From Isoetes taiwanensis (taxonomy: Eukaryota > Streptophyta > Lycopodiopsida > Isoetales > Isoetaceae), in NCBI GenBank assembly GCA_021234155.1, contig JAJEKV010000051.1, forward strand, positions 9,258,105-9,322,104: 64,000 nt of DNA, given 5' to 3'. Under the pieces are notes generated by a model. It saw nothing but the letters and a program-made list of their open reading frames with translations. It had not been told where the DNA came from and ran no database searches. Position 1 is the stretch's first letter, and the number at the start of each line of letters is the position of its first letter. Made by a program: the position numbers and the translations under genes. Shown piece after piece: positions 1 through 49,059 of the stretch.

Positions 1-390
1 TCACATTACTTCCACGGGGGGCGACTCGTTATGGTGATCTTACGCAAGTGTCCGACGGCCAGCTCCCCGGCCTTCCTTGGTCGATCTTCGAGGAGTCAAT
101 CCGGGGATAGGGGTCAAGTTGGCATCCAAACTTGGCAATCCCCATGCTACCCAATCGATTGGGGCAGGTGGCGCCTTCCCAAATGGTAATTAGCCTAATT
201 TCCTAGGTTATAGGTTATTATTATTAATGTGTTAAATTAGCATAGCTAATTTAATCCTTCTTAAGATAACCCCCTAGGTTGCAATTAAGTTCCCATACCC
301 CCATGGTAGCGCATGCACTGTGGGGGAGTGACGTGCTTGTATTTGTACGTGTCCCGTATAGTAGACCGTATAAATACGTGGAACGTCACA
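1..390 (-). repeat. 3' LTR of the gypsy element, partial
   Basis: Positions 1-390 match 11604-11985 of the right-hand LTR almost base for base from about position 118 on, and with scattered differences before that. On the minus strand the LTR begins TGTGACGTTCC at 390. About 1.2 kb of this LTR lies outside the window to the left, so the left target duplication cannot be read. Confidence 0.93.
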
Positions 391-403
391 TTCTCCCCTC
401 CTT
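391..403 (-). other. Polypurine tract of the gypsy element
   Basis: On the minus strand the purine run AAGGAGGGGAGAA abuts the start of the 3' LTR. This is the expected plus-strand primer site for reverse transcription, and its position fixes the inner edge of the LTR. Confidence 0.85.
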
Positions 404-917: not shown

Positions 918-1211
918 CTAGCAATTCGCGGTCATGTCAACATCAACAATACACCACGTCCTAGAGAACACGAAGGTGATCTCATCATCGGTTATTATTA
1001 TCATATACGATGCGTCTACCCCTCTAAAACATGATTCTCGGTCAATCAAGCCTTCAAGCTTACCGCCGGGAGCGGGGTTGATAGCATCGTTGATGGTGCG
1101 GCCTTGAGATTCCCGCATGAAGTCTGGATAGTGCTTCTCAAGGTTTATCTTCATCACCCAGGTAGCATCTTCAATCGGTAAGTGCTTCCACTTGACCAAG
1201 TATTGCAACAT
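918..1211 (-). CDS. Chromodomain of the gypsy polyprotein (fossil part)
   Basis: The start of the frame has the chromodomain signature YLVKWKHLPIEDATW. The family consensus has an aromatic residue and VKWKG followed by W and an acidic stretch that forms the methyl-lysine pocket. In chromoviruses this domain ends the integrase and is known to steer integration by binding methylated histone H3 tails. It lies directly after the integrase. The frame runs past the domain into sequence that does not look conserved. The element is treated here as a fossil. Confidence 0.88.
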   Translation of the reverse strand: MLQYLVKWKHLPIEDATWVMKINLEKHYPDFMRESQGRTINDAINPAPGGKLEGLIDRESCFRGVDASYMIIITDDEITFVFSRTWCIVDVDMTANC

Positions 1212-1286
1212 TTGAGTCCTTAAATTACGTTTGTAAGCTCGATCAAGAAGAGCTTGGGCACTATTTCCAGCTGCTCTTGATCATTT

Positions 1287-2486
1287 CTAGGAGGGTAGGG
1301 GTATCCAAAACCTCCTCCGGATCAGGTGTGTTGCTTGAAGACTCACGTGAAAGACCTTGTGGATTTTCAAGCGGGTGGCAAGTCCAAGCGATATGCACCT
1401 GTTCTCCCACACGCGTTCGATAATCTGAGCGGCCCGATATCTGGGTGCCAACTTCTTCTGATTACCAATTTTAAGCTTGGCTTGTTTTACTTTGATCTTA
1501 AGCCAAACTGATTCGCCCACCTGGAAGATTCGTGGGGTTCGGTGCTTATCCGCTAGACTCTTCTGACGACTGCGTGCGGCCAATAAGTAACCCCGAACTT
1601 CTTCCACCAAGGCCTGCATTTCTAGAAGGAGTTGTTGCGAGACCTCCACTTTAGAAACAGGATTATGCCACGTGTCTGGAGTAAGACATTGATAGCCATA
1701 ATTTATCATGAAGGGAGACATTCTAGAAGACTCCTGCTTTGTACTGTTGTAGGCGAATTCTACCAAGTAAATATAATCCGCCCATTGTGACTGTTTACTC
1801 CATACATAGCTTCTTAGCATATCTTCGATAATACGATTGACACGTTCTGTTTGACCATCTGTCTGAGGATGGTAGGCTGTACTCATGGCAAGCTTGGTCT
1901 GGATGGTGGCGAAGAAATCCTTCCAGAATGCACTGACAAACTTAGGATCCCTATCCGATACAATTACTCTCGGCATCCCGTGCAACCTGAAAATTTCCTT
2001 TGCAAAGAGCAAGGCGGTGTCGAAGGCGGTGTCCGTGGTGCGACATGGCAGGAAGTGAGCCATCTTTGATAGTTTGTCGACCACGACCATTAAGGCATCA
2101 TACCCACGGAGAGTACGTGGAAGCCCCACAATGAAATCCATGGTTATGACTTCCCACTTGGCGTTGGGCACATCCAAAGGTTGCAACTCCCCGGGAACTC
2201 TTAATTGCTCAGCCTTGGTTTGTTGACAAACCTGACACTGTTTGATGTACCTAGCAATATCCTTCTTCATGGAAGGCCAAAAATAGCTGGAGCGGATCTT
2301 AAAGTAAGTTTTCATAAAACCCGCATGTCCTGCTATAGGGCTGTTGTGTGTGTCGTGGAGAATCAGCTTTCGCACCCCTGAAGTCGCTGGAACACACAAC
2401 TTATCTTTGTAATATAATAAATTGCCCTCCTTCTTATATGAACGGAATGCTTCACGTTCTCTATCGGTACGGGCTTCCTTACCCAA
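1287..2486 (-). CDS. Integrase of the gypsy element (fossil part)
   Basis: A 399-residue frame shows the integrase zinc-binding HHCC region (HAGFMKTYFKI, then CQVCQQTK) and a DDE core. The first aspartate is in VITMDFIVGLP, the second in VSDRDPKFVS, and the glutamate is in the YHPQTDGQTERVNR region. Downstream is the conserved GPY-type region (VGESVWLKIK through APRYRAAQIIERV), leading to the chromodomain. The domains are in normal order, and this is the longest preserved stretch of pol in the copy. Confidence 0.95.
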   Translation of the reverse strand: MGKEARTDREREAFRSYKKEGNLLYYKDKLCVPATSGVRKLILHDTHNSPIAGHAGFMKTYFKIRSSYFWPSMKKDIARYIKQCQVCQQTKAEQLRVPGELQPLDVPNAKWEVITMDFIVGLPRTLRGYDALMVVVDKLSKMAHFLPCRTTDTAFDTALLFAKEIFRLHGMPRVIVSDRDPKFVSAFWKDFFATIQTKLAMSTAYHPQTDGQTERVNRIIEDMLRSYVWSKQSQWADYIYLVEFAYNSTKQESSRMSPFMINYGYQCLTPDTWHNPVSKVEVSQQLLLEMQALVEEVRGYLLAARSRQKSLADKHRTPRIFQVGESVWLKIKVKQAKLKIGNQKKLAPRYRAAQIIERVWENRCISLGLATRLKIHKVFHVSLQATHLIRRRFWIPLPS

Positions 2487-2573
2487 ACTTTCCCAAATAT
2501 TACAATTGCGGATCTGTGGCCAAGGTCTGTCTATCCGCTTCCCAAACTCGGGCCGGTGAGTGTGGAAATGGCA

Positions 2574-3240: not shown

Positions 3241-4492
3241 TCACGAGATAATATGCCCCAAATAGTCTACCCTCGGAGTGGCGAACTTGCATTTAGAGAA
3301 CTTGGCAAAGAGCTGATGGCGCCTTAGCTTTTGCAAAGCTAATCGAAGATGTTGTTCATGTTGCTGCAAGGTTTTACTATAGATGAGAATGTCATCAAAG
3401 AAAATGACAACAAAGTCATCCAAGTATTGGCGGAAGATGTCATTCATCAACCGCATAAACGTTGCAGGGGCGTTGGTCAATCCAAAAGGCATGACAGTGA
3501 ATTCATAATGCCCATATCCGGGTACTGAAAAGCGACTTATGGATGTCCTCTTCCTTAATCCTTATCTGATGGTACCCGGAGCGCAAATCAATCTTTGAGA
3601 AATATTTTGCTCCTTGTAACTGGTCCATAAGATCATCTGCCCTAGGCAAAGCATAGCGATTCTTGATGGTATGCTTATTGAGTTGCCTATAATCAATACA
3701 CATCCTTAAGGAGCCATCTTTCTTCTTGACAAAAAGAATAGGAGCGCCAAATGGTGAAACACTGGGCCGAATAAACCCCAAATTCAGTAACTCTTGTAGC
3801 TGTTTCTTAAGCTCTGCTAACTCCGGAGGACTCATTCTCTGACGGGCTTTGTTGGTAGGCTTAGTACCTGGTTCAAGAGTTATCTCACATTCCACCCCTC
3901 TGAAAGGAGGAAGCTTGTGGATCTCATCTGGAAAAAGATCGCTAAATTCTCGAAGAAGGGTAGCAATGTCCGATGGTAAGACGTCGATTACTTGCTGCTG
4001 TTTGGAGTCCGACTCAATGGAAGCAAGTTTAATGAGGCAAAGGAGTTCATTCCTGCGTATAGCTTTTCCTAGCTGCTTTATTGACATTGACTGCATAGCG
4101 GAGTGTAATGAATCACCTTTTATTGTCACACGTGCTCCATTAGCGGCGTTGAAGGTGACCTCCCGTTTCTCACAGTCTATGTGGGCCCTAGCAGACGCTA
4201 AAAACTCCATTCCCACAATAAGATCATATTTGCCAATGTCCATTAACTCGGCACCCAAGGCAACTGGTGCACCTGGCAACTGCATTTTAAGGTTAATACG
4301 GCGGCCATGAGTGTGTCTGATCTTACCGCTAGCTAATGTGACTGGCTTAGGTCGGGATCTCAACGTTTCCAGCTGCAGTACCTGGGCCATTCTAGGAGAA
4401 GCAAAATTATGCGTACTACCCGTGTCCATCAAAATTATGAAGGGCTTACTGTCTACTTGGCCTATTGTAGAAATAATGTATATGACTTTCAA
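3241..4492 (-). CDS. Protease and reverse transcriptase of the gypsy element (fossil part)
   Basis: The upstream frame (3503-4492) starts with an aspartic protease: [12 protein letters not shown] with the DTG active site, and later DLIVGMEFL. It continues into reverse transcriptase: [52 protein letters not shown]. The adjacent frame (3241-3492) has [20 protein letters not shown] and the catalytic FFDDILIYS (the YxDD box), then [10 protein letters not shown] and VDYLGHIIS. This order of PR then RT, with integrase downstream, is diagnostic of Ty3/gypsy. Confidence 0.95.
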
Positions 4493-4928
4493 GCGTTACT
4501 GTTTCTATAGCGGCAAGAATATGAGACGCACCATGAATGTACTTTCGGGGCCTCGTCCTCCGCAAAGAAGATTGGACTCCAAATCTTCCCAATCCAGGCC
4601 GACCATGGCGGTTGAGCGATCTGCGTGGCGTGCGGACAATTCGCATGAAGTGTCCGGCCTCATCTGCCCGTAGCATGCCTTATCCCGTGGAGCTGTTCTC
4701 GCCTCTTTAGGAATGGACCGTAAGAGGCCCCAATTTCCTTTCCAGCATTGTTCTCGCTTATCCGGGCGTGCTAAAAGCAACTTTCTTCTCCCTCAAGGCG
4801 TCCATAAGAATTGTCTTTGAGAGGGCCCCGGACTTGGCTTAACGGGGTTTGTAAGGTGTGGACGGCCGTGGTCGCGAGTAAGGAGCAGGTCGCGGATCTT
4901 GCGCTCCTTGGCGTGTCTTCCTCAAGGC

Positions 4929-5816
4929 TTAATGCCTTAGCTTCCGCCTACTCATCGACTTTGGGTCGATGGCCTTGACCATTCGTTTAATGGATGGGGC
5001 CAACCCTTCAATGTAGCCCTCTACTGCTCTTTTCTCATTCATTCCTGGCACGTACAACCTCAAACGCATGAATTCGTCAGTGTAGGCCTGCACGGACATG
5101 CCCTTCCTCGTTCCAACCTTGTAGAAGGTCTGAATCACAGCATTTGTGCGCGTGAGGCACGTAATGCGATTTAAAAAGCCTTAGCAAACTTCACGAACTT
5201 GCATCCGCTCCTATCCGGTGTTTAGCTTCGGCGTAACCCTTCCACCAAATACGGGCAGCTCCGGTAAGGTTCGTGGTGGCGACCTTCCCTGTATCTTTCT
5301 CCGTCATTCCATAGGACTTCCCGAATTCCTTCATTTCGTCCAACCAAGATTCCGCATTCAAGCCTCCTCTGGATTTCCCATCAAACTGAGCCAACTTCCG
5401 GTTCTTCCATATACTAGTGATAGCTGTATCAACGGTTTTTCGGTATTCCTTATCCTTACGCCTTGAATGGTCACTGTCTGATAGCGAGGACCCCGAAGAA
5501 CCCGAAGTGGTTGAATGTGAGGAAGCGGCGCTATCCTTAGAGGAACTTCGTTGACGCTTAGCATGAGTCCTTCTCTCATGCAATTACATGGCTAGCTCCT
5601 CGGGAGGAGATGGTCTGTTGTGTGTGGACTCAATGGTCGCGAGGTAATTCGGTCCGTCCTCTCCCGAGTATGTGGCAGTGGATTGGTATGCAACACATAA
5701 GCCTGTAACTCGCCGAGTTGCCTTTTCATTAACATCAATTCCTGTTCAGGGGTGAGCCTACTGGCGTTGGAGGGTGTTTGCCAAGCGGCGTTACGTACAC
5801 CGTCTATAGGAATCAT
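4929..5816 (-). CDS. Gag region of the gypsy element (fossil part)
   Basis: The stretch holds IWKNRKLAQFDGKSRGGLNAESWLDEMKEF (split over the motif), typical of plant gypsy gag before the capsid helices, then TNLTGAARIWWKG, MIQTFYKVGTRKGMSVQAY and TDEFMRLRLYVPGMNEKR. A Ser/Arg-rich low-complexity segment (about 5480-5580) precedes it, and an N-terminal part lies at 5592-5816 (LTPEQELMLMKRQLGELQAY, probably a coiled coil). It is broken. The gap to the protease at 4500-4900 should hold the CCHC knuckle, and I read only weak traces of one there. Confidence 0.85.
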
Positions 5817-5997: not shown

Positions 5998-6480
5998 CTA
6001 CTTGCACACAAATAAACCACAACAACGAAAAACACAACGGAAGAGACCAAGCCTAGGGGTTGGGAAGAAGTACAGGATCGCCAGAAGCGGTACTCTCCCC
6101 GCATGTTTCGGACGAAGTTTATAGCGCGCCCGTGCTTGGACAATGATTGCTTGGTACTCCCATGTTGGGCTGATAATCAGAAGGTTAAAGAGCCTTCGTG
6201 ATTGCATAAAAGAGTTGCCAAAGATGGTCGTTATGCCCTCGAAGGCTTCGTGCCTGGTCATATTCCAAAGTAGTCCTGTGTGCGACCGGGGGGTCATCTT
6301 CGGATCCTCGGCTCGATCCCCGAGGATGTTAACTATCTCCAGCCCTTTGTCAGGGTCGTAGAGTTCCCCTGGTGGCGGTGGTTCGGTTTCATAGCCTTCC
6401 TCCCATTCTGGATATTCACCATATCTCTGGCCATAGTCCTGGTCTCATGCCCTGATCGTCCCTCCTAACCATATCGGTGA
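5998..6480 (-). CDS. Leader ORF c of the gypsy element, unrecognised
   Basis: Upstream of gag a minus-strand open frame reads GEYPEWEEGYETEPPPPGEL, then DPDKGLEIVNILGDRAEDPK and TPRSHTGLLWNMTRHEAFEG before the stop near 5998. The N-terminal half is acidic and proline-rich, and the C-terminal half is hydrophobic and basic. I do not recognise the family. It lies in the element's sense orientation between the H3-bearing segment and gag, so it is either a second additional ORF of the element or captured sequence. Confidence 0.45.
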
Positions 6481-6539: not shown

Positions 6540-7150
6540 ATTTTGTAATTCCATTATATTCTAAAGTTTTAATACTTTTGAAGAGGATGTCATAAAGAAA
6601 AACACACAATTCAATAATACTCCTCAAGAGAACTTTGTATTTAATAAGTAAATAAGGTATACCATTTGTCAATATGGTCCATTCAATTGCCAACCGAAAA
6701 TCCCAGAACACACATATATAGATATATAAGAAAAAAACTAGCAAAACATATATATATATATATACATTTTTCATAGCAAAATTATACTAGGAACTAGGCC
6801 CTGCCTCCTGATCCTTAGCCCTAGGAGGTGGTGGAGGCGGTCGGTGTCGCAGAAGAGAGTAACCCTGTGGTCTCTCTTGTGGCAGCCGCAATGTCTGCAA
6901 CCTCTCGGGGATAGGCAACGGCCAATGGGGCTGCCGTGAGGAGCTTCATGCCCATCCAAGGCGCAATGTCCCGACCCAAGGCCCGTCGGGGCAAGGTCCC
7001 GTCGATGAAAGTACATACGTAAACGTCACGATAGGGAAGCTTCTTGTGGCGGCCAGGTGTAGAGAGTGCACGGAGGGCCCACCATGAAGCTTCACCTCCG
7101 GCGCTAGATCTCGGCTATGAAGAGGACTTGTCCGCGGTTTGAAGGCCGAC
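6540..7150. other. AT-rich spacer within the gypsy leader
   Basis: The left half (6540-6780) is AT-rich and includes a short TA repeat near 6748-6765. The right half is mixed sequence with short minus-strand frames that I cannot recognise. Nothing convincing is coded here. Confidence 0.5.
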
Positions 7151-7171
7151 AAAAAAGAAATCGTAAGATGG

Positions 7172-7420
7172 TTACCCAAAGACTTTCCCTTGCGAAGTCT
7201 CGAGATGTCGCCACTTCTTTATCCAGTCCATGGGGACTTCTTCCTCCTTGAGCTCCCTTGCTCCCTCCTTCTTGTGCTTGGGGGTTATGGTATAAATCTT
7301 CACCCTCATCATCCGAAAGTCGGAGGGAACTTCCACCATATTAATGTTTGGGACGGAGGTCTCATAGCCGTGAAGGCATCCAGTGCAAAGTCTAAGGCCG
7401 GGTTCCCCGCACGAAGTCAC
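7172..7420 (-). CDS. Leader ORF, small, unrecognised
   Basis: An 82-residue minus-strand frame reads VPNINMVEVPSDFRMMRVKI, then TPKHKKEGARELKEEEVPMD and WIKKWRHLETSQGK. It has the composition of a real protein, alternating basic and acidic residues with a Trp-rich end. It follows leader ORF b directly in another frame. I recognise no family and do not infer that the two were one protein. Confidence 0.35.
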   Translation of the reverse strand: MTSCGEPGLRLCTGCLHGYETSVPNINMVEVPSDFRMMRVKIYTITPKHKKEGARELKEEEVPMDWIKKWRHLETSQGKVFG

Positions 7421-8198
7421 GAGACGTAGGTAGGGTCTCCGCCGGCTCTAGAGTCTCCTGACGGAACTGAAGCAGCTGGTGCACCTCCGGAGGAAGCTCG
7501 GTAGAAGTGAAGTCGATGAAATCATCCATACAATACTCCGCAAGCTCGTAAAGTACATGGTCTTTGCGCTTGCGTCTAAATCCGGCCACCACGTGATACG
7601 TCCAGATAATATCATCCAAGAGAAGGTATTCCCCCCTTTGGTGATAAATAACGGAAGGCCGTCCTAACCCCGACAAGCCTATAGATTGGTCACGGCCGCG
7701 GTGGTAGCTCCTCGCTAGCTCTTTCCAACGGGCAAAGTCGCCCATGCCTATATGCTCGTCATCCCCCTCCTCGGGAGGATTCGCGGCAGCTTGCCCTTCT
7801 CTGCGCAAGCAAGGTTTCATCCTCAACGTATTGGTCCATGAGGATGGCTAGAGCGAAAGTGGCTTCCAGATACTGCTGCCCCTGATGCTGGACCACTGGT
7901 AGGTGTTTACCCCATCGGAGTTTCCCCTTCAGGACATCATAAGCATGTGTGTCCCCGCCTAGCATCTGCCGAACTATCTCCCGCTCCAAATACAAGTGGG
8001 GAGGATCCCCCAGAGGAATACACAGAGGAAGCATTTCCTCCATGTAAAAGTCAAGGAATCCGGGAGTCCCTGATGCCGCATGTTGGCAAGGAGATCTATG
8101 CGTTGGCATAGCAAAGGCTGCAGCAGGTCGAAGGGAACCTGTGGATCCCATTTCTCTCCATCAAGGTACCAGGCAGCAAGGTCGGCGGCGGCAGCCAT
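7392..8198 (-). CDS. Leader ORF b region, unrecognised protein family
   Basis: The region opens with MAAAADLAAWYLDGEKWDP at 8198, 58 bases below a TATA-like box. It continues in minus-strand frames with GFLDFYMEEMLPLCIPLGDP, YLEREIVRQMLGGDTHAYDV, HLPVVQHQGQQYLEATFALA, MGDFARWKELARSYHRGRDQ and ELAEYCMDDFIDFTSTELPP. Composition is that of a soluble, helix-rich protein. More than one frame is involved, so the copy appears broken once or twice. I do not recognise the family. It may be a second captured host gene next to the H3, or an element-specific accessory protein. Confidence 0.55.
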
Positions 8199-8399: not shown

Positions 8400-9089
8400 C
8401 TAAGGTTGCTCCCCCCGTATCCTATGGGCGAGGGCTAAATCCTTAGGCATTATGGTGACCCTCTTTGCGTGGATAGCGCAAAGGTTGGCATCACCAAAAA
8501 GTGCTACCAAGTAGGCTTCAGCAGCCTCTTGGAGCGCCAAAATTGCAAAGGTCTGGAAACGGAGATCGGTCTTAAATTGCTGTGCGATCTCCCGTACCAG
8601 CCTCTGGAAAGGCAGCTTCCTGATCAGAAGGTCCGTGGACTTCTGAAATTTGCGGATCTCCCGCAATGCCACGGTACCGGGTCGGAACCGATGAGGCTTC
8701 CGCTGTGGCCCAGGCCCCGACGATGTTGGCACCGTCTTAGCCCCAGCAACCGGCCGGGAGTTATCCACTCTCTGCTGCCTCCGGTCGGAGCTGGTCTTCT
8801 TCCCAAAAGCCCCGACAGTCTTTAACTTATCCTTGTATTGACTGCCGGCCTTATGGGCGACTCCCTTCCTCCGGAGCTTAACGGTCGGATGCGTCGGTTT
8901 TGGGTTCGAGCCACTCCCAGATGCACCTCCTCCCTGTTGGTCCCGCTGATCTTGTCGGTCCCGCTCCTCTTGCTCCAACTTCTCGCGCTCTTCCCGAGCT
9001 CTCCTTAGGTCTTCTTGGATCTGAGCAAAAAGTTGGGCTGCGGCACGGCGATTAAGTTCAGCGTGGTACCGTTGTGGCCGCAGACCCAT
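8400..9089 (-). CDS. Histone H3-like protein with long divergent N-terminus, carried in a gypsy leader
   Basis: This is an uninterrupted 229-codon ORF from ATG at 9089. Residues 131-229 are a full histone H3 fold: [72 protein letters not shown] and LAHRIRGE. About 84 of 99 residues match canonical plant H3. R63, R83, K56, K79, K115, C110, H113, K122 and D123 (H3 numbering) are all kept. Changes include D77Q, S86T, F at 87, G102A, E105G, T107A and R128H. F41 is as in plant H3.1 and L90 as in H3.3. The loop-1 length is canonical, so it is not CENH3. Residues 10-52 form a charged, probably coiled helix. Residues 60-130 are a basic tail without the ARKS motifs around K9 and K27. There is no intron. 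It lies sense to gag-pol and inside the LTRs. Confidence 0.93.
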
Positions 9090-9399
9090 GTCTATCTGAA
9101 TAGTTGTCAGATAGTCTATGCTAATGTCGGGATTTCTCCCCGGACAAAGGCTGTTGGAACCCTCATGCCGGTGGTATGGGGAACCTCAATGGCTCTGCCA
9201 TCAATGACGGCAAAGCCGCCCCCTCGGTGGTATCTGCATTACTCCCTACCCCTCCTCTTTGTCGGCCGGCCAATCTCCCTGGTCGCCCCTCCCCGGCAAA
9301 ACCCCTAATCACGGTCACCTCCCCGACATCTTCCTCCTCCGTATGGCCTTCCCGTTGGGAGGATAAAATTTGATGAGCATCATTACCATATCGGGTTGC

Positions 9400-9771
9400 T
9401 CAACAAGGGTATATATGGGAGAGGCGTAGGTTCAAATGGATGAGGAATGGCTCTGAGAAGTGATAGACAGGATATGGAATCCTATCGTTGTTCTCAAACC
9501 TATTGACCAGCTCATCCAACAAGATGTCGATGAGGGCTGGGTCAGTAGCCATGTGCTTAGCAATCATGGCGTAGATCTCCACGATGCTCATGGTGGACGG
9601 ATCCGGAGCGCTCTTGGTAATAGCCATAGCGGGTAGTGCGGCGCTGGCGGCGAAGGGGATGGCAAAGGGGGCGCTAAGAGGCACAAAGCACAAGGGCGCA
9701 GGATCAAGGTCCGGTCTGGTGGCGATGGCGGAGGGCGGCTCAGGCGGTTGGAGGCACGGAAGCAAAAGCAA
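9400..9771 (-). CDS. Leader ORF a, unrecognised
   Basis: A 123-residue minus-strand frame opens with a Pro/Ala-rich stretch and continues MAITKSAPDPSTMSIVEIYA, MIAKHMATDPALIDILLDEL and VNRFENNDRIPYPVYHFSEP. The likely true start is the internal Met before AITKSAP. The helical middle (IVEIYAMIAKHM, ALIDILLDELV) is protein-like. It is the first ORF behind the primer site and lies about 300 bases ahead of the H3 ORF. I do not recognise a family. Sequence between it and H3 (9090-9400) also reads partly open but is not clearly coding. Confidence 0.4.
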   Translation of the reverse strand: MLLLPCLQPPEPPSAIATRPDLDPAPLCFVPLSAPFAIPFAASAALPAMAITKSAPDPSTMSIVEIYAMIAKHMATDPALIDILLDELVNRFENNDRIPYPVYHFSEPFLIHLNLRLSHIYPC

Positions 9772-10363: not shown

Positions 10364-10376
10364 GGCTCTGATACCA
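10364..10376 (-). other. Primer binding site (initiator Met tRNA)
   Basis: On the minus strand TGGTATCAGAGCC follows the end of the 5' LTR after one base. It is complementary to the 3' end of plant initiator-Met tRNA, the usual primer of chromoviruses and many copia elements. Confidence 0.92.
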
Positions 10377-10377
10377 C

Positions 10378-11985
10378 TGTGACGCTCCCGGAATATATAC
10401 GACCCTCTTTGCGTATACATACGGGACTTTCCCTCCCATGGCAACCATCTCACCATGAGCGGGGGCCCTCCGCCTATTTCAGGCCATCTATGAAATGAGG
10501 CCCCAAAGAAGGACACGAAAGGGGTCATTCGCCCACGCCTTGATGGGACTCCTACGTCGCGCGAAGCATGAATACAAGGGTTAGCACACAAAGATGAATA
10601 TACATAAATAACCACCACGAAGGGTGGCGATCCATCTACTATACCAATGGCATAGAATATGCATCTAATCCTACGAAAATACCGAACCCGTGTTCTACCC
10701 CTCTCGAACTCCCATGAGGATCGATCGACGGCCGGGCCTCAAGGGATCAAGACCGAAGTCTTGGCATGGCGTTATCGGCATAGAACATTGGCTAGGGTTG
10801 TCCACTCCATCCGCCCCTCACACACTTTGCGGATGGGTCGATTCATGCTATGGCTTTGCTATAGCCTTCCTGAGACGCAAACTCGTGGCATCACCCTCTG
10901 AGCCTACTCCAGTGTTCATGACGCTTGGTCCGATGAGGCGTGCTCGGGGAGGCGTCCCCTTCCGTAATCACAATGGGTTCCATGGGTGAGCTAGAGAATA
11001 CGTGCCGCATCACACCGGCCCCGCATCCGTGCAGAGCTTACTCACCCTAAATCTACTCAAAGTGCATGGTGCTCCATACGGATCACACCACTACACTCGG
11101 GGAGTGTCGGACCCATACCCGCCCTCAACGTGGCCCGGCTATCAGGCCTAGCCCATTTGTAGGAGTCTCAGGAGCCTTGTATGCTCATGCAAGACCCCAC
11201 CCCTCATGTCGCCACTGTGTTCCTTGTCTGGTGCTAAGCCAGACCATAGCATCTAGGACCCGGTGGGTTCTTGTGCACAGGCCGCACTTAATGGGACTCT
11301 ACAGGGCGCGATCTAGGAGCATACTACAATACACGGTTCAGAGGCCTCTACCCCCGTAATCCCCCGCTTGAGTCGATTAAACAAAGAACTAACAATCCAT
11401 CCTTTCGAGTAAGAACCAGAATTGAATATAAAGAGAACTTGTTTGTACAATCAAGGGTTAGTTTCTATGATTGATTCACAAAGAGAACAGAGAGAGACGG
11501 ACACAACCAAGTGTTAACTAGAATTCACATAGCCACCTACCTGAATTCTGGCTGGACTCGTTTCCATGGGGCGCCTCCATCTTCTGGGAGTTGAGAATTC
11601 AGCTGTTACTTCACAGGGACGACTGTTATGGTGATCTTCTGCAAGTGTCTGACGGCGCCCAGCTCCTGGCCTTCCTTGGTCGATCTTCAGGAGTCAATCC
11701 CAGGGATAGGGGTCAAGTTGGCATCCAAACTTGGCAATCCCCATGCTACCCAATCGATTGGGGCAGGTGGCGCCTTCCCAAATGGTAATTAGCCTAATTT
11801 CCTAGGTTATAGGTTATTATTATTAATGTGTTAAATTAGCATAGCTAATTTAATCCTTCTTAAGATAACCCCCTAGGTTGCAATTAAGTTCCCATACCCC
11901 CATGGTAGCGTACCTGTAGGGAGTGACGTGCTTGTATTTGTACGTGTCCCGTATAGTAGACCGTATAAATACGTGGAACGTCACA
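10378..11985 (-). repeat. 5' LTR of the gypsy element, complete (1608 bp)
   Basis: The LTR is bounded by TGTGACG at 10378 and CGTCACA at 11985, with matching inverted ends, and the primer site lies just inside. The part 11604-11985 matches window positions 1-390. The base run after it, GTTAC at 11986-11990, would be the target duplication, but its partner is outside the window. Confidence 0.92.
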
Positions 11986-17743: not shown

Positions 17744-18610
17744 ACATGCATTTTGCATTGTGACCATTGTTCCCTTTATTTGTTCCTTTCTTTTTTATTA
17801 TTTTATTTAATAATAATAATAATAATAATAATGATATTAATCAAGCCATTTTTAGGCCCCCAGGCCTCTATGGCATAATACATCAAAATAAGTCACTTAT
17901 CTCAAAGCACCATCTGTGTGTCAAAGTCAGACATTAAATTAAATAACTCCATGATATCGCCTCTTTCAGACCAAACATCTCTAATATACGAGCTTAAGAC
18001 TTGCGCAGGTAGTCTCCAAAGCTCACTCAATGTAGCTGCATGGATACCATGGCTGGCCCTAACATGCTCATAAGAAGCACATTCTAGAAAGGTATGTTGC
18101 TCAGTTTCAACCACTGGATCTAAACAACCCAAGCAATATCTCTCGTGACGAGGTGTAGTGGCCCACCGTCCTGTTTCTATATGCAAGGCATGAGATGACA
18201 GTCTTAACTGAGAAATCAACATACGATTTTTCCTGCTTACATATGATAGCAAATAAGGTTGTTCTTCATAAGCATCCAGCCCATTTATTTCTTCCATATA
18301 AAATCGTTTCTTCACATCTCCTTCAGGATCAAGTCTCCACAACTTATCCAACACCCTGATCTTCACATGCTCATAAACTTCTTTAAAGTTCCGTGACATC
18401 GGCCATGAATCTGAGTTAAGCCACCTTGCGCACCATCTTCTGACCTCACAAAATGCATGTATTGTTAAGCAAATACATGCGTTTTCAATAACATAGGGAC
18501 AATGCAAATTCATTCCATTTTGAAAAATGCATACATGCATAGACATGCATTTCGCACTGTGACCAAGGTCCCCTTTATTTCCTCTTTTTTCTTTTTTTCT
18601 TTTAGTTATA
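17744..18610. repeat. Diverged ~65-bp direct repeats flanking a LINE fragment
   Basis: The sequence from CATGCATTTTGCATTGTGAC near 17748 through a pyrimidine run to about 17812 recurs diverged from CATGCATTTCGCACTGTGAC near 18545 to about 18615. The two copies bracket the LINE fragment. They are longer than a normal LINE target duplication, so an older local duplication may be involved. Confidence 0.55.
17808..18546 (-). mobile_element. LINE (L1-type) 3' fragment: ORF2 zinc-binding region and ATT tail
   Basis: A minus-strand frame (17902-18546, 214 codons) carries RLSSHALHIETGRWATTPRH followed by YCLGCLDPVVETEQHTFLEC and a Y-x-x-x-R end. This is the Cys-Cys-His-Cys region that follows reverse transcriptase in plant L1-type ORF2 proteins. 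Upstream are KLWRLDPEGDVKKRFYMEEI and YLLSYVSRKNRMLISQLRLS, also typical. On the minus strand it ends in a run of ATT/TTA repeats (17808-17832) and an A-rich tail, the usual LINE 3' end. The 5' part, with endonuclease and reverse transcriptase, is missing. This is a dead 5'-truncated copy, but the remaining frame is open. Confidence 0.85.
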
Positions 18611-36120: not shown

Positions 36121-36269
36121 GAGGAGGAGAAGAAGAAGAAGAAGAAGAAGAAGAAGAAGAAGAAGAAGAAGAAGAAGAAGAAGAAGAAGAAGAAGAAGAA
36201 GAAGAAGAAGAAGAAGAAGAAGAAGAAGAAGAAGAAGAAGAAGAAGAAGAAGAAGAAGAAGAAGAAGAA
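36121..36269. repeat. (GAA)n tract 1, about 47 copies, head of unit U0
   Basis: An almost perfect GAA/AAG run with three GAG at its start. It marks the 5' end of unit U0 in the array. Poly-Lys, poly-Glu and poly-Arg frames through it are artefacts. Confidence 0.97.
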
Positions 36270-38262
36270 TAATCTGGTATGTTTGTTTGAAAAATGCTTT
36301 AGTTGTGAATTTATCATATGTTAAATTTCTAATGATGAAGGATTTATGGAAGTTTATATGGACTAATATGGATAAATATGAGTTATGGGAAAGAAAATGA
36401 AGGAAAATATTCAAGCTATCTTTTACAATGTATTTGATGGGCCAAAGCCAAATGAATATCTACCAAATGGAGATGTGATAAAAATTTTTTCACTAAAGGT
36501 ACGTTATTTTATCTCATGATCTAGCATTTATTGCTACACATGGAATTTAATGATATGCTATGTGCAAAAGCACTTAGGCTTTTGAAAGTTGTGGTAATAA
36601 TAAATTGTGTCAACCTATAAAGTTTCTATTGGGTCTAGTACCATATATGCTTATGATTCGGTCCTTTGAAGCCGTAGATATGAATAAATTAATTGATTGA
36701 GACTCTACATAGGTAAATGCCTTTTCTTTGTTTCATATGGCCGATGGTAATTATGTCACCATTATGGCATGGGATAAGGAAGCGGTTGCGAATATAAGGT
36801 AAGATACCAAGAAATAGGTTAAGGGTTTGAAACGGATAACCTAAAAGCCAAGTTATTGTGGAGACTCTGTAGTTTGGCGCCCAAGCTGCCGCCTGTAGTT
36901 TGGCGCCCAAGTTGCCGCCTGAAAAATCTGCTTGATGCAACATGCTGTATGAATCATGGCCGATAGTACTTGGACGATTCTATCCTGCTGTGATACACAT
37001 GAAAATACTTGATGGGTTTGATTCTTTGAGGGTTTTGAGATCTTCCATCAAAGAAGCCTATTTGATACAGTGCAGACAAGAAGCCAAAGGAGCTGGACCA
37101 ATGCATGGAGATGCTTCACCATAAAAGTATGAACGAAACAAATACAATATGAAGTCTTAATCTGGAGCGAAACTATTCAGGTCAGCTTATGATGTGTTGA
37201 GCTTTATAACAGGTTTGAGGGTACCGTTAGTATTGTCTTGCTTCAATAACATGAAGAATATTTGTTCATAACTAAGATATCTTCCACAAAATACAATATT
37301 GATGGTTCTTGAGCTTATGTTTGCTTTTTATTTGGAAAATAACGTTTGTTGCTACCAAAATCAAGATTAATGAACTATTTGATTATTAGACTACATGTTC
37401 TATACTTCTGGCTGTCACATATTATTGATGGGAATCCAGATTCAGAAGGCTGTAGTAAACAGCCAATACTATATGCTTTTCATTTTTCTTGAAATACCTA
37501 ATGTCTTTTTGCATACTTCACTATTATATTGACCCATAATACTTTGGGAATCTCTAGGTGAAGGGCGAAGAGCCAAGATATCTAACTGCTTACCTGTCAT
37601 CCCTTATACTATTACCAAGATTATTGCTAACTAGTATATTGGTTGGATGCAGGTAACCCAGATATCTTCTCCTTGGAGTTCTCTTTTGTATTGTCAAAGG
37701 TCATTATGCTATGGCATTTTGGGCCGTGTATGAAGAACAGGCATTAAATGGTGCTATGAGAAGTTTAGAACCTTATGAGACATTATGGTGAGATCCTTCC
37801 GATTTGAAAGTTTAAGAAGATTATCTACAAAGACTCAATCAGCATAAAACAAGGATTTGGTATTCATATGTAATGGTCTGATTTTTTACATAAAAGCTTG
37901 AGAATTTTGCTGTTATATGCTCCTTATCTGTTATATTTCAGAAATGATGACTTGACCTTCATAAAATAATTATAGTCTTTCTTGAGATAATCAACCTTTG
38001 TACTCTTTATGATGAAATCACATATAATGGTCTGTTTTTTATGATTAAATCTTACTTCTCTTTTTGTCTTTAAACTGAATACATGAATAAGACTCTATTT
38101 AAAGCTGAAAAAATAAATTTCCTAATATATTAAGGTGGTACATTGTACCATAGACTGTGGCCTAGTGCATAACTAGGAAGGATATTATTGAAACGTTTAC
38201 ATCATATATGGAACAATATTTCTGTTATTAAACAAAATAATGTGAAGTTTTGATGTAAATAT
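36270..38262 (+). repeat. Array unit U0 (diverged, 2.0 kb)
   Basis: U0 is related to the other units by its GAA head, by TTTGGCGCCCAAG..TGCCGC words (36878-36920, a 27-base tandem pair) that match TTGGCGCCAAAGACTGCCGC in U1, and by GGTGAAGGGCGAAGAGCC (37558) shared with U4. It has a donor-like AAAG|GTACGT near 36499 and a strong acceptor, GGATGCAG|GTAACC, at 37651, inside a hairpin (37575-37668). I find no protein that I can recognise. Confidence 0.65.
37575..37668 (+). other. Hairpin around a 3' splice site in U0
   Basis: AAGATATCT (37575-37583) pairs perfectly with AGATATCTT (37660-37668), and TACCTG (37591-37596) pairs with CAGGTA (37650-37655). The ~53-base loop carries TTGCTAAC, a good branch-point word. 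The same structure with different stem sequences recurs in U1-U5. Confidence 0.6.
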
Positions 38263-38374
38263 GAAGAAGAAGAAGAAGAAGAAGAAGAAGAAGAAGAAGA
38301 AGAAGAAGAAGAAGAAGAAGAAGAAGAAGAAGAAGAAGAAGAAGAAGAAGAAGAAGAAGAAGAAGAAGAAGAAG
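38263..38374. repeat. (GAA)n tract 2, head of U1
   Basis: About 37 copies of GAA run into GATCTTCTCTTC, which starts the U1-type leader. Confidence 0.97.
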
Positions 38375-38743
38375 ATCTTCTCTTCTTTTGTTTGTAAACT
38401 TGTGGAATATGATGACCACACATTGTGGTAAAAGATTTATTGAGTTTAGGTTAAAGACATGTAGTGCAAACAAATCCAATGGTAGTGTATTCTACTATTA
38501 ATGCTTCACATGTATAACTAGCTAAGAAAAAATATGAGGTTGGTGATGGCCAATGATTTATAGATGGGATATGTAAAGACACAAGCTAAATTCTTGAAAT
38601 TTGAGGAGCTATGCTCCAAGTATATTGAAGGAGAATAGTCTTTACCTTAGAAATACATGGGAAATTGATTGTGTGAACATTTATGTACACTAATTTTATG
38701 AGCTAAGGCAAAATACATGTAAATATTTGGGACTAGATGTGGC

Positions 38744-43157: not shown

Positions 43158-43162
43158 GTGGC

Positions 43163-44044
43163 ATGATACACTCTATGTCGTACATAAGCATCAAGTGGTC
43201 ATATATATTGTTTTATGACTAAAGATAAAGATAAGCCTTTTCTTTCTTTTAAAACTTATGCATGCATGGCCTTATATGCAAGCATAACAAGTGGTGGTCT
43301 ACATGCAAATGCAAATGTACTTTGCATTCAACTTTGTGGCTTTACGCAACTTTGTGGCTTATAATTAGCACGAAGGAGCTCATGGAACGTGGGCTTTCTA
43401 GCATGCATATACTCTAAGGTACGGTACCTTTTGTGCCAATGGTTTTGGATAATATTGCATGGTAATATTGCATGGTTTTGGATAATATGGTAGAAAATAC
43501 ATTGCCTAATTGCCTAATAGGTTAATAGGCAAAAAAATACCTAATACTGAAACGTCCAGCATTAGCTGCGACTATGCTTGGCGCCAAAGACTGCCGCACG
43601 CAGATGCTTCAACATATTTGCCATCAAGCTATGCCTGTGAGGCTTTGATCTTGCTAGAAGGTCATGTAGCAAGGTCGTTTTTGACCCGACTATACAGATC
43701 TCAGGTGCCTGAACTAGTGGCTGTGGCCAGAGGTAGAAATACAGATGCAAATCTCTGCCTTCAGATTATGTCTTAACTCTGCACATAGCTAGAGATGTGC
43801 TTACGTTTGAAGAGACCGGAATCCATATTTGTGCCATGGAGATTTAAGTGCTAAGGCGAGTTCTTGCTTAGCCAATGAAAAATAACTCAGGCCTGCCTTC
43901 CTGCTAACATGATTGGCTAGAAGTTTATGTCCAAGATAAAGGAGCTGGATTTGTTACTCTCGATTCTTGCTCTATGGCGGTTCTGCCATAAACGGATTTG
44001 CTTTGAAAATGGTGTTCCCAAGTTCTTAAGGATTTGAGACAGAG
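43163..44044 (+). ncRNA. Possible first exon of the U1 transcription unit (distal part)
   Basis: This is the U1 sequence between the LTR element and the donor. It carries TTGGCGCCAAAGACTGCCGC near 43579 and ends GGATTTGAGACAGAG. Frames are short and differ between U1, U2 and U3. Whether it is transcribed is unknown; the claim rests on the TATA block upstream and the splice signals. Confidence 0.3.
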
Positions 44045-44975
44045 GTATGTAATACAATTTTGGGCTTTATCAAAATACTGTGCCTAGTCTGGATTTTAGA
44101 TGTGCATTGACATCTTAATCAAATGCAGTCCTACCAGGTAGATAGAAATTTTGGCCTTAATGGCTATTGATCATAGCAGCATAAATAAAGAAAGCTTTTC
44201 AATTAAGATTTATGGTTCTCATAAGAAGATCTGGTTGCCAGGCTCATATGATACTTTCTTGCCACAGCATTGGAGCTATAAGACAGTACGAAAATAGGAG
44301 CTATGGTTGAATTTTCATAATAGGCTGGATATATTCCTGCACAAACTATTGCGGTGGTTGGATGCGACTTCCAAATACCAGGTTCTTTATTACTTCTAGA
44401 ATGCCATGGAGCAATGAACAGGTTTTAGATCTAAGCATGACAAAATGAGATGTAATTCCGCATCTCTCCATTACTAAAATCTATTTGGCGCTGGATTTAT
44501 GGTTGTCATGATAGGCATCTTCATAACATAAGCTGTATATGATCTGTATGATAAAAGTTCATGTTTGTTATGCTAAGAAAGTCCATGTTTCTATGCTAGA
44601 TATTCCTAAAAGCTTACAAGTTATTCTATGATACGATGTACAGTTTGAGAAGTTAAAAATGCTACACTTTATATACTATAGATTTGACGTTGGTTCTTTG
44701 TAATATGTAAAGGATTATGCTATCAAGTAACCAGCTAGATTTGGGATCAAGAAATTGGTTCTCATCTAATGTTATAGCTTGATATTGGTTGATTAATTAC
44801 ATATTTTTACTTGAAAATTTCGATGAAGTTATTATTCCATTTCCTTTTTTGTTAATGTCCACCTCAGGGCAAAAGGATACAATTGGTGATCAGTGATAAA
44901 CTGAGAGACCCAATGTACCTTTTGGCCCTTGCACATTTACCATTATCATGCTAATTGTGTATTGATTGGCTGTAG
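44045..44975 (+). other. Candidate intron in U1
   Basis: It starts GTATGT after CAGAG and ends TTGATTGGCTGTAG, with ATGCTAAT 26 bases before the end as a branch-point word. The counterpart in U3 is 50298-51239, and in U5 61131-62146. In U2 the donor reads AGTTATGT, so splicing there would fail. Confidence 0.5.
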
Positions 44976-44989
44976 GTACGGGTTCTCTC
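44903..44989 (+). other. Hairpin around the 3' splice site in U1
   Basis: GAGAGA (44903-44908) pairs with TCTCTC (44984-44989), CCC (44909-44911) with GGG (44980-44982), and GTACC (44915-44919) with GGTAC (44975-44979). The loop holds TTACCATTATCATGCTAATT. U2, U3 and U5 have the same stem; U0 and U4 have different but equally paired stems. Confidence 0.6.
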
Positions 44990-45836
44990 CTCTAATTGTC
45001 TCCATTTTGCTGTTAGAGTTGGCGTTAACGCGGAAGAGGATGGAATATCTTACATCAAGATTCAAAGTTTACTTTACACTTCACACTTTCAAATTCAAAA
45101 CTTCATGGTTGTAAGATTTAAGTTTATAGTTGTAAGATTGATTACTTTATACTTTCAAATTCAAAAACATTATGTACAAATTGGATATGCTAATATGGAA
45201 AGGATGATATGAATTATTTTACTCAAGATTTTTATTTTTTGATATTTTTCAATATAGTAAATTATATGGGCTAAGGTTTGTAGAGTGCCTGATGTGGCCT
45301 GGCCTAAAAACCAGGGTGGATATTGGGATAAGTGATCTTGCCTTGAACAAGGTTCTTTTAATGTAATTGTTTGCATAACTGTGACTGTAGTCTTGGCAAG
45401 AACATGTACGAAGAAGAAATCGTGACTTCCACTTGCTGGAGATATCTGGCAAACGCATCACTTCTACAAGCCAGGTTAGTTTGAATATTATTGCTTTTGG
45501 ACAGTAAAATAGGTTCTGCTACCATATGCTATGGTAAATGGCCCATAGCCTATTATGATATAGTGTTTTATACTATATCGTGTCATCCATGGTACTTAAG
45601 GCCCACTGTGCCTCATGTACTTCAAGATTTTAAAACCCTGACATTTTGTTGGGTCTTGAACTAGTCCATTGTACTAGTTCTTGAATTATCTGCTATTGCA
45701 GATATAGTATTTGGTCCATTGCACCTTATACTAATAAGATAAAGATGATGTAATAATTTGATGCTGATTGAAAGATTCTTTGAATCTGTTTTTCTTCTGG
45801 TGTAAGGAAGTAGGACCCCTCTTTTTATAAAGGAAG

Positions 45837-45893
45837 TAGGACCCCTCTTTTTATAGGGGGGGTCCTGCTTTCCTTATAAAAAGAGGAGTCCTA
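45837..45893 (+). promoter_or_regulatory. TATA-bearing inverted repeat upstream of U2
   Basis: TAGGACCCCTCTTTTTATA (45837-45855) is the near-perfect inverse of TATAAAAAGAGGAGTCCTA (45875-45893), with GGGGGGGTCCTGCTTTCCT between them. The right arm offers a TATA box about 35-45 bases before the GAA leader. The left arm is itself duplicated here (AAGGAAGTAGGACCCCTC at 45804 and 45830). The block recurs before U3 and after U5. Confidence 0.5.
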
Positions 45894-45916
45894 CATCCCG
45901 AGGGAGGGATTGTGGG

Positions 45917-45935
45917 AGGAGGAGGAGAAGAAGAT
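45917..45935. repeat. (GGA/GAA)n tract 3, head of U2
   Basis: This is a short GAGGAGGAGGAGAAGAAG run at the same place as the long tracts of other units. The tract length is therefore highly variable between units. Confidence 0.9.
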
Positions 45936-48900
45936 CTTCTCTTCTTTTGTTTGTAAACTTGTGGAATATGATGACCACACATTGTGGTAAAAGATTTATT
46001 GAGTTTAGGTTAAAGACATGTAGTGCAAACAAATCCAATGGTAGTGTATTCTACTATTAATGCTTCACATGTATAACTAGCTAAGAAAAAATATGAGGTT
46101 GGTGATGGCCAATGATTTATAGATGGGATATGTAAAGACACAAGCTAAATTCTTGAAATTTGAGGAGCTATGCTCCAAGTATATTGAAGGAGAATAGTCT
46201 TTACCTTAGAAATACATGGGAAATTGATTGTGTGAACATTTATGTACACTAATTTTATGAGCTAAGGCAAAATACATGTAAATATTTGGGACTAGATGTG
46301 GCATGATACACTCTATGTCGTACATAAGCATCAAGTGGTCATATATATTGTTTTATGACTAAAGATAAAGATAAGCCTTTTCTTTCTTTTAAAACTTATG
46401 CATGCATGGCCTTATATGCAAGCATAACAAGTGGTGGTCTACATGCAAATGCAAATGTACTTTGCATTCAACTTTGTGGCTTTACGCAACTTTGTGGCTT
46501 ATAATTAGCACGAAGGAGCTCATGGAACGTGGGCTTTCTAGCATGCATATACTCTAAGGTACGGTACCTTTTGTGCCAATGGTTTTGGATAATATTGCAT
46601 GGTAATATTGCATGGTTTTGGATAATATGGTAGAAAATACATTGCCTAATTGCCTAATAGGTTAATAGGCAAAAAAAATACCTAATACTGAAACGTCCAG
46701 CATTAGCTGCGACTATGCTTGGCGCCAAAGACTGCCGCACGCAGATGCTTCAACATATTTGCCATCAAGCTATGCCTGTGAGGCTTTGATCTTGCTAGAA
46801 GGTCATGTAGCAAGGTCGTTTTTTGACCGACTATACGAGATCTCGGTGCACGAACTAGTGGTCGTGGGGCCGAGGGTAGAAATACTGATGCAAATCTCGC
46901 CTTGATTATGTCTTAACTCGCACATAGCTAGAGATGTGCTTACGTTTGAAGAGACCTAATCCATATTTGTGAAATGGAGATTTAAGTGCTAAAGGCGAGT
47001 TTTGCTTAGCCAATGAAAAATAACTCAGGCCTGCCTTCCTGCTAACATGATTGGCTAGAAGTTTATGTCCAAGATAAAGGAGCTGGATTTGTTACTCTCG
47101 ATTCTTGCTCTATGGCGGTTCTGCCATAAACGGATTTGCTTTGAAAATGGTGTTCCCAAGTTCTTAAGGATTTGAGACAGAGTTATGTAATACAATTTTG
47201 GGCTTTATCAAAATACTGTGCCTAGTCTGGATTTTAGATGTGCATTGACATCTTAATCAAATGCAGTCCTACCAGGTAGATAGAAATTTTGGCCTTAATG
47301 GCTATTGATCATAGCAGCATAAATAAAGAAAGCTTTTCAATTAAGATTTATGGTTCTCATAAGAAGATCTGGTTGCCAGGCTCATATGATACTTTCTTGC
47401 CACAGCATTGGAGCTATAAGACAGTACGAAAATAGGAGCTATGGTTGAATTTTCATAATAGGCTGGATATATTCCTGCACAAACTATTGCGGTGGTTGGA
47501 TGCGACTTCCAAATACCAGGTTCTTTATTACTTCTAGAATGCCATGGAGCAATGAACAGGTTTTAGATCTAAGCATGACAAAATGAGATGTAATTCCGCA
47601 TCTCTCCATTACTAAAATCTATTTGGCGCTGGATTTATGGTTGTCATGATAGGCATCTTCATAACATAAGCTGTATATGATCTGTATGATAAAAGTTCAT
47701 GTTTGTTATGCTAAGAAAGTCCATGTTTCTATGCTAGATATTCCTAAAAGCTTACAAGTTATTCTATGATACGATGTACAGTTTGAGAAGTTAAAAATGC
47801 TACACTTTATATACTATAGATTTGACGTTGGTTCTTTGTAATATGTAAAGGATTATGCTATCAAGTAACCAGCTAGATTTGGGATCAAGAAATTGGTTCT
47901 CATCTAATGTTATAGCTTGATATTGGTTGATTAATTACATATTTTTACTTGAAAATTTCGATGAAGTTATTATTCCATTTCCTTTTTTGTTAATGTCCAC
48001 CTCAGGGCAAAAGGATACAATTGGTGATCAGTGATAAACTGAGAGACCCAATGTACCTTTTGGCCCTTGCACATTTACCATTATCATGCTAATTGTGTAT
48101 TGATTGGCTGTAGGTACGGGTTCTCTCCTCTAATTGTCTCCATTTTGCTGTTAGAGTTGGCGTTAACGCGGAAGAGGATGGAATATCTTACATCAAGATT
48201 CAAAGTTTACTTTACACTTCACACTTTCAAATTCAAAACTTCATGGTTGTAAGATTTAAGTTTATAGTTGTAAGATTGATTACTTTATACTTTCAAATTC
48301 AAAAACATTATGTACAAATTGGATATGCTAATATGGAAAGGATGATATGAATTATTTTACTCAAGATTTTTATTTTTTGATATTTTTCAATATAGTAAAT
48401 TATATGGGCTAAGGTTTGTAGAGTGCCTGATGTGGCCTCGCCCTAAAAACCCGAGGTGGATATTGGGATAAGTGATCTTGCCTTGAACAAGGTTCTTTTA
48501 ATGTAATTGTTTGCATAATCGTGGATCGTAGTCTTGGCAAGAACATGTACTGAAGAAGAAATCGTGACTTCCACTTGCCGGAGATATCCGCAAACGCATC
48601 ACTTCTACAAGCCAGGTTAGTTTGAATATTATTGCTTTTGGACAGTAAAATAGGTTCTGCTACCATATGCTATGGTAAATGGCCCATAGCCTATTATGAT
48701 ATAGTGTTTTATACTATATCAGGCTGTCCATGGTACTTAAGGCCCACTGTGCCTCATGTACTTCAAGATTTTAAAACCCTGACATTTTGTTGGGTCTTGA
48801 ACTAGTCCATTGTACTAGTTCTTGAATTATCTGCTATTGCGGATATAGTATTTGGTCCATTGCACCTTATACTAATAAGATAAAGATGATGTAATAATTT

Positions 48901-49030: not shown

Positions 49031-49059
49031 GAGAAGAAGAAGAAGAAGAAGAAGAAGAT
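49031..49059. repeat. (GAA)n tract 4, head of U3
   Basis: About nine GAA copies lie between GGGATTGTGGGA and GATCTTCTCTTC. Confidence 0.95.

Follow-up and report, generated by a model that had tools for sequence, protein, structure and literature searches.

Can a core histone gene be a regular part of a retrotransposon? The question is raised by a stretch of 64,000 bp from the genome of Isoetes taiwanensis (GenBank assembly GCA_021234155.1, contig JAJEKV010000051.1, forward-strand positions 9,258,105 to 9,322,104; hereafter the window, position 1 being its first letter), in which an open reading frame (ORF) ending in histone H3 lies within a long terminal repeat (LTR) retroelement of the Ty3/gypsy group. 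The frame belongs to a longer gene, here called ORF-A, which on account of its position, copy number, diversity and ratio of nonsynonymous to synonymous substitution rates (dN/dS) almost certainly constitutes a genuine gene that a chromovirus family has kept for long, and not a passenger. As to its role, we favour, with belief and doubt evenly balanced, the reading that a predicted tail-swapped H3 would enter nucleosomes and bring a domain of the element to chromatin.

The histone H3 core and ORF-A

On the minus strand of the window, 229 codons are open at 8400-9089, as noted in a sequence-only reading that preceded this analysis and left the strand unstated; from stop to stop, the frame comprises 261 codons (8403-9185). 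Its last 100 residues (RKPHRF... to RIRGEQP, followed by the stop codon; 8400..8700, minus strand) constitute a histone H3 core, which is recognised by the Pfam family Histone (PF00125; E 4.6e-41, 140 bits at a cut-off of 26.4) and by H3 matches in PDB, the top match being H3.3 (E 2.3e-52). Between H39 and E133, the core is identical to each of the two host H3 genes compared (L030 and L033) at 82 of 95 positions, such that the former estimate of a complete H3 fold with about 84 of 99 residues shared with plant H3 is about right. In the protein database, the 120 matches listed for the whole ORF (of 8000 scored) are ordinary H3 proteins, for the most part tandem H3s (five sequences inspected), and residues 1-126 of the ORF yielded nothing at E 1e-3 among 225 candidates. 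A structure model of the ORF, based on a poor alignment built with tandem H3s, had a mean pLDDT of 48.8 and was discarded unused. In a search of viral contigs, a single contig was matched by the H3 ORF (L001, a 4-kb IMG/VR viral contig); its H3-like stretch at 1054-1338 is 37% identical to the query and, by the impression of its sequence, resembles a histone gene of giant viruses.

The ATG at 9089 codes for a methionine in the interior of ORF-A, which extends over 8400..9627 (minus strand) with an acidic N-terminal domain (N-domain), a basic linker and the C-terminal H3, as determined from the reading frames, from open relatives and from their alignment. The gene start in these relatives corresponds to window position 9627, and the encoded protein has around 409 amino acids. 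In the window copy, a stop codon and frame changes interrupt the first part of the gene, and the gene is open from 9185 to 8403; since the first part is out of frame, the open 229 codons are a remnant. The earlier claim that the ORF stays open while gag-pol is broken therefore holds from the internal methionine on, but not for the upstream part of ORF-A, and two points had been missed: H3 makes up only the C-terminal quarter of a larger protein, and the element is a chromovirus.

Position within a complete insertion

The element runs leftwards from window position 11985 and is complete as an insertion, with a length of 13.2 kb (genome C1058:9256873-9270089). The 5' LTR (10378..11985, minus strand; 1608 bp, TGTGACG...CGTCACA) was delimited by self-BLAST and inspection of the sequence; the start of the 3' LTR (1..390, minus strand, self-BLAST) is situated at the edge of the window, and a further 1232 bp continue outside it up to C1058:9256873 (L055). 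The LTRs end with TG..CA, are 92.0% identical over 1586 aligned sites (Kimura two-parameter distance 0.085), and the sequence GTAAC is found on both flanks of the insertion as a 5-bp target-site duplication. The paired LTRs and the GTAAC on both sides place H3 inside a complete insertion and not beside an element, as had been proposed. A substitution rate of 1.3e-8 per site per year is known for rice LTRs and is not calibrated for Isoetes; at this rate, an age of about 3 million years would result for the insertion.

The primer binding site TGGTATCAGAGCC (10364..10376, minus strand), identified in the sequence, is located one base after the end of the LTR and reads complementary to what we take to be the initiator tRNA-Met; its exact 12-mer is present at the same place in 15 of the 20 copies fetched (see below). 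ORF-A is thus situated in the leader between primer site and gag, and gag, protease (PR), reverse transcriptase (RT), integrase (INT) and chromodomain are encoded on the same strand, in agreement with the orientation given before.

Copies in the Isoetes taiwanensis genome

All copy counts were taken from best-match lists of genome searches and are lower bounds. The union of three such lists, with same-strand places less than 2.5 kb apart merged and 15 host genes excluded, contains at least 353 distinct places with ORF-A or an element-type H3; 53 of these derive from the H3 query alone, and only few of them were examined individually. Concerning the single queries, the window ORF was found at at least 150 places with 75-100% identity (11013 first-look candidates), and 112 of the best 150 are without an internal stop (hand count). 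The best 150 places for canonical H3 comprise 15 intact H3 genes at 96-98%, which are taken as host genes and of which five were fetched, and 135 further places at 71-86%. The N-domain of a second subfamily, used as a query without H3, was found at at least 150 places with 61-100% identity. Because the lists hold best matches only, the family may be larger than the places counted.

Twenty copies of 9.9 kb each, spread over the match list of the window ORF, were fetched; they were chosen by their H3 match, and the sample is therefore biased towards intact H3. All 20 copies exhibit, in this order, the 5' LTR, ORF-A with H3 and a second conserved leader ORF (ORF-B). The frame of ORF-A is open in 19 of them and broken in one (L027), and within the 9.9 kb both gag and PR-RT were recognised in 16 copies each. 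An integrase query yielded 98 scored places with 87-100% identity (34970 candidates). Upstream of 26 of these, at a distance of 2.5-14 kb and with the same orientation, a listed ORF-A/H3 place is found; the controls, taken downstream on the same strand and on the opposite strand, gave 0 and 0. The other 72 integrases have no ORF-A/H3 place among the matches listed. Six of them, picked for long open pol frames, were examined, and the H3 core is present in five, directly in four (damaged in L047 and cut by the end of the stretch in L051) and after reading of the neighbouring stretches in the fifth. Among the five N-domain places of lowest identity, four are followed downstream by the H3 core, which is damaged in three of them, and the fifth leaves element sequence before H3.

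Other copies thus carry the H3 ORF at the same place, a point on which the sequence-only reading had asked for a check, and a one-off capture is rejected by the number of places and the constant order in the fetched copies. An artefact of assembly or annotation, by which a host H3 gene would have come to stand beside the element or be joined to it, is hardly credible: no point in its support was found, and it is contradicted by the target-site duplication and paired LTRs enclosing H3, by the copy number, and by element cores that differ from the five fetched host H3 genes.

At G000:C1041:9391646-9397603, four integrase copies follow each other in a row on the same strand, 1573 bases apart, apparently as a tandem array of an element fragment.

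Selection on ORF-A

The dN/dS ratios, another check proposed beforehand, were calculated by the Nei-Gojobori method among the 19 open copies, pairs with dS outside 0.1-1.5 being dropped, and are far below 1. The median ratio is 0.043 for the H3 core (median dS 0.47; 162 of 171 pairs), 0.069 for the N-domain (median dS 0.74; 138 of 171 pairs) and 0.204 for the linker (median dS 0.57; 168 of 171 pairs), and ratios are low in every dS bin. Values for comparison are 0.081 for PR-RT (7 copies), 0.009 for the RT core (9 copies) and 0.079 for ORF-B (7 copies); for gag, the search pattern caught no copy. To judge from these ratios, ORF-A is constrained about as strongly as the PR-RT stretch of the element and less than the RT core.

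H3 captures do exist in the hAT elements of fungi (PMC3538342, PMC6710886), for which a spread without function has been suggested, and a host H3 transcript could likewise have been picked up here and spread by hitch-hiking. This is very improbable, however, as it is largely refuted by the selection test (dN/dS of 0.043 in H3 at a median dS of 0.469), and as N-domains of only 30-43% identity keep their place ahead of the H3 core and the order of features is the same in all 20 copies fetched by H3 match.

Residues of the H3 core

Thirty element cores were classified as intact by a motif pattern, which fixes some positions by itself and drops L041, L042, L044, L047, L050 and L051; these 30 cores are identical to host canonical H3 at 80-86 of 95 positions. 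Because the pattern biases this set, the residues were recounted without it in a tblastn comparison between the host core and 36 element loci, among them damaged ones. In none of the 36 loci is the H3 core interrupted by a gap. The host residue is kept at 41 of the 95 core positions in every covering locus, and at 71 of 95 with at most two exceptions. Among 32 positions listed as contacts to DNA, to H4 or between H3 molecules (roles that we assume), 29 keep the host residue in all loci or all but one; R42, replaced by K in 5 of 34 loci, K64, replaced by R in 6 of 35, and P121, substituted in 3 of 34, are more variable. Characteristic of the element cores are A107, found in all 35 covering loci, whereas T107 is present in the 12 canonical H3s compared (five from the host, seven from other eukaryotes), and L for I at position 124 (32 of 34 loci). 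Positions 87-90 mostly read FAIL, and HAIL in another group.

The centromeric variant CENH3 has a divergent core with a longer loop 1. Judged by this feature, CENH3 identity was rejected, since the element cores contain no insertion and are close to canonical H3 in the proportion given above. In an H3 tree, canonical H3s stand apart from the element H3s with a support of 92/89, which is below the strong-support thresholds of 95 and 80; strong support was obtained at 3 of 26 inner branches. At this level of support, a single origin of the element H3s rests mainly on the common N-domain and on A107.

The conserved contacts bear on the possibility that ORF-A is a nucleoprotein of the virus-like particle, where it would compact RNA or cDNA as a second nucleocapsid and use the H3 fold for DNA binding and dimerisation only. 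The basic linker and core, the place of ORF-A as the first gene after the primer site, and the packaging of DNA with histones in giant viruses (PMC9145170) agree with such a role, but plain DNA packing without an H4 partner would not require that the contacts to H4, between H3 molecules and to nucleosomal DNA remain nearly unchanged, and no second histone was found among the element ORFs submitted to Pfam. We consider a particle protein distinctly unlikely.

The replaced tail

The canonical N-terminal tail of H3 (ARTKQTARKS...) is not found in the element proteins, its place being taken by linker and N-domain, and in the 75 residues ahead of the core the motifs ARTK and ARKS, i.e., the K4 and K9 segments, are absent. 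At the position of K36, R is found in 30 of 33 element tails (L048, L050 and L054 are without P38, and their alignment is ambiguous there), and in three of the four N-domain types read. A K27-like motif (AKTVP, GKSIP, GKTIP) precedes the core in most copies. To judge from these residues, selection has kept the nucleosome-forming surfaces and replaced the part that is modified by the host.

Loss of the K4 and K9 segments, R at K36 and an altered chaperone patch might also be expected of a protein acting on the host, i.e., of a decoy or dominant H3 that withdraws H4 or chaperones by titration, or disrupts K9 and K36 marking genome-wide, and thereby relaxes the silencing of all elements; the H4 of bracoviruses is a known effector on host chromatin (PMC9145170). 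A genome-wide poison, however, would be detrimental to the host, on which an element with vertical inheritance depends, and a decoy of this kind is unlikely in our estimation.

The N-domain, its types and ORF-B

In relatives, ORF-A encodes 407-442 amino acids, and in open copies of the window's subfamily it is 407-420 codons long; in L023 it runs past the usual stop (452 codons), and in L014 the frame of 409 codons lies within a longer open stretch. The acidic domain comprises around 181 residues, and the isoelectric points (pI) in three copies are 4.5-5.2 for the N-domain, 10.0-11.2 for the linker and 10.7-11.1 for the H3 core. Residues 1-300 of an intact copy yielded nothing at E 1e-3 among 3252 candidates of the protein database, and the N-domain profile gave nothing confirmed among viral and prokaryote contigs. 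The N-terminal part of ORF-A thus has no relative in the protein database at this threshold, perhaps through repeat masking of such genes.

Four N-domain types (those of L010, L035, L051 and a copy on C946) are pairwise 30-43% identical, with 34-35% between L010 and either L035 or L040, and share a pattern of RIPYP or RVPYP, ERF or EPF, LN, VEQ and YLG; L036 represents a further, damaged type. By alignment, the N-domain is fused in frame to H3 in the L010 and L035 types. Ten integrases linked to the second subfamily are 88-90% identical to that of the window, like those linked to the first subfamily, in a best-match listing that favours similar integrases. Near-identical integrases thus stand behind N-domains with only about 35% identity, from which an exchange of leader cassettes and pol between elements appears probable.

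ORF-B (6790..8198, minus strand) was delimited from frames and relatives; it is acidic (pI 4.7 in L028), encodes around 466 amino acids in relatives and, in the window copy, contains several frame changes. Of the 20 fetched copies, 5 have it complete and 2 nearly so, and in the related copy L049 it is 45% identical to that of L028. A comparison of the N-domain with the ORF-B profile gave a probability of 0.1%. A short third frame between ORF-B and gag (ORF-C; window 6001-6444, minus strand) comprises around 165 codons in copies and is situated about 1.8-2.3 kb after ORF-A in L010, L015, L017, L022, L026, L027 and L028.

That the N-domain is constrained (0.069) and precedes the H3 core in the four types read, in frame in two of them, is also consistent with an H3 core that serves as a tether only, anchoring an N-domain bound to Gag, integrase or RNA to chromatin and guiding integration together with the chromodomain of the same pol, with chromatin itself left unchanged. 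Such a tether, which would require a partner for the N-domain, appears rather unlikely.

The gag-pol region and other features of the window

All features of the gag-pol region are located on the minus strand. The sequence of gag is in pieces (4932..5816), with matches to Ty3_capsid (E 2e-4) and Retrotrans_gag (E 4e-4) on 4932-5180, both under the curated Pfam cut-off, and was otherwise followed by its frames. Protease and reverse transcriptase occupy two frames (3244..4495; RVP_2, E 6e-11, and RVT_1, E 5e-11, on 3506-4495), the remaining part of RT being recognised from frame translation. The integrase (1290..2573; Integrase_H2C2, E 2e-21; rve, E 9e-8) is followed at the end of pol by the chromodomain (924..1280; Pfam Chromo, E 6.5e-8, 32.8 bits at a cut-off of 25.1), and a purine tract GGGGAGAA (391..398), identified in the sequence, adjoins the 3' LTR. 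The order gag, PR, RT, INT, chromodomain was thus obtained by Pfam on separate pieces of the window, the chromodomain from the window copy only; the order from gag to INT is also found in the fetched copies, as far as the 9.9 kb reach. The hallmarks of hAT elements, i.e., terminal inverted repeats and a hAT transposase, were not found; LTRs, reverse transcriptase and integrase are present instead.

Elsewhere in the window, the regions 43158-51682 and 54377-64000 contain long direct duplications (5.4 kb at 96.7% and 0.95 kb at 98.6%), and arrays of trinucleotide type are found around 36122-36272, 38263-38375, 51674-51833 and 54372-54412. An ORF of 214 codons at 17905-18546 (minus strand) resembles the final part of a LINE-type reverse transcriptase gene; this is an impression from its sequence, and Pfam gave no match at E 1. 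A scan of the window with Rfam yielded nothing at gathering thresholds.

A possible role in chromatin

According to the favoured reading, the H3 core would pair with host H4 and be deposited in nucleosomes, either on newly made DNA copies of the element itself or on a wider scale, and the N-domain would be carried on the nucleosome surface in place of the ordinary H3 tail. The resulting nucleosome would be without the K4 and K9 segments of H3, would carry R at K36 in three of the four types and would mostly retain the K27-like motif. Since the host H3K9 pathway could hardly mark such nucleosomes, the element would most likely benefit by resisting silencing through H3K9, by having its products tethered to chromatin, or by both. 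ORF-B, acidic and conserved, might speculatively be regarded as a chaperone of the ORF-A protein. Chromodomains have a general role in chromatin interaction (PMC2864245), and the presence of one in the same element suggests that the lineage already interacts with chromatin. A more elaborate proposal is that of a private chromatin code: ORF-A and host H4, with ORF-B as chaperone, would build nucleosomes on new copies that the H3K9 machinery cannot mark and that proteins of the element recognise. We rate this proposal as unlikely.

Several points weigh against the favoured reading. Expression of ORF-A and incorporation of its protein into nucleosomes are predictions from sequence. The roles given to N-domain and ORF-B are guesses: the N-domain profile has no match in PDB (best E 2.7), and ORF-B has none in Pfam, its profile reaching a best E of 0.87 in PDB. 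As the chaperone patch of the core is changed, host chaperones could fail to take the ORF-A protein. In the L051 and C946 types, the H3 core follows in order and on the same strand, with an interrupted frame in the one copy read of each. Furthermore, ORF-A of L051 begins with MARTKGTK, like the N-terminus of H3 but far from its core; in this one copy, mimicry of the H3 N-terminus is possible. One of the six integrase-anchored copies starts within ORF-B, and no ORF-A is found in the preceding 1.3 kb. Concerning selection, the copies compared had been selected by a good H3 match, such that intact ones are favoured, and the eight closest pairs have higher dN/dS ratios (0.148 for the whole of ORF-A, 0.124 for H3).

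Comparison with known systems

Mobile elements carrying H3 are already known from Dothideomycete fungi, where hAT DNA transposons contain H3-like genes: in Pyrenophora tritici-repentis, the copies (H3L) are described as recent and nearly identical (PMC3538342), whereas those of Pseudocercospora fijiensis and relatives are described as ancient, inactivated, mutated by RIP and mostly truncated (PMC6710886). Common to these and to the Isoetes elements is a mobile element with a histone H3 gene that has multiplied to tens or hundreds of copies. The fungal elements differ, however, in being DNA transposons with H3 as a separate ORF, whereas the present element is a retroelement, whose H3 is joined to a conserved domain and evolves under purifying selection. 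Single H3 genes are also described for several DNA viruses (PMC9145170), and the element residues at positions 87-90 given above form part of the likeness to them. As part of an LTR retroelement, however, the Isoetes H3 is not itself a viral singlet H3 and could at most work in a similar way. These viral genes are scattered single acquisitions in DNA viruses, with no LTR retroelement among those treated in that paper; the Isoetes H3, in contrast, has as its extension a conserved acidic domain of around 180 residues and belongs to a gene common to many divergent copies.

Orchid Ty3/gypsy elements with an ORF for an AlkB-type RNA demethylase (PMC9289625) are similar in that a Ty3/gypsy lineage of plants has permanently gained an additional cellular domain, plausibly as a means against host control, but their domain is an enzyme against RNA marks and not a histone. 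In the result section of the same paper, a screen of LTR retrotransposons from 121 angiosperm genomes reports 15 uncommon domains, among which no histone domain is named. Chromoviruses, i.e., Ty3/gypsy elements with a chromodomain, are known from lycophytes, too (PMC2864245); the Isoetes elements share the chromodomain with those of plants and fungi, for which no H3 gene is described in that publication. In the main text of two Isoetes genome papers, the word histone does not occur.

The statement of the sequence-only reading that no described retroelement carries a core histone stands insofar as no LTR retroelement with a histone gene was found in open-licence PMC papers; H3 borne by a transposon, however, is not new. 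New, within the papers searched, is an H3 that is borne by a retroelement, fused to a further domain and, to judge from the substitution ratios, under purifying selection.

Histones are the means by which the host silences transposons, and here a retrotransposon family itself encodes a core histone. Whether transposons write chromatin as well as read it thereby becomes a question for the bench, with a defined protein at hand, and the family constitutes a natural experiment on which residues of H3 are needed once its tail is gone. Finally, it illustrates that protein collections can lack a gene family that is large and conserved.
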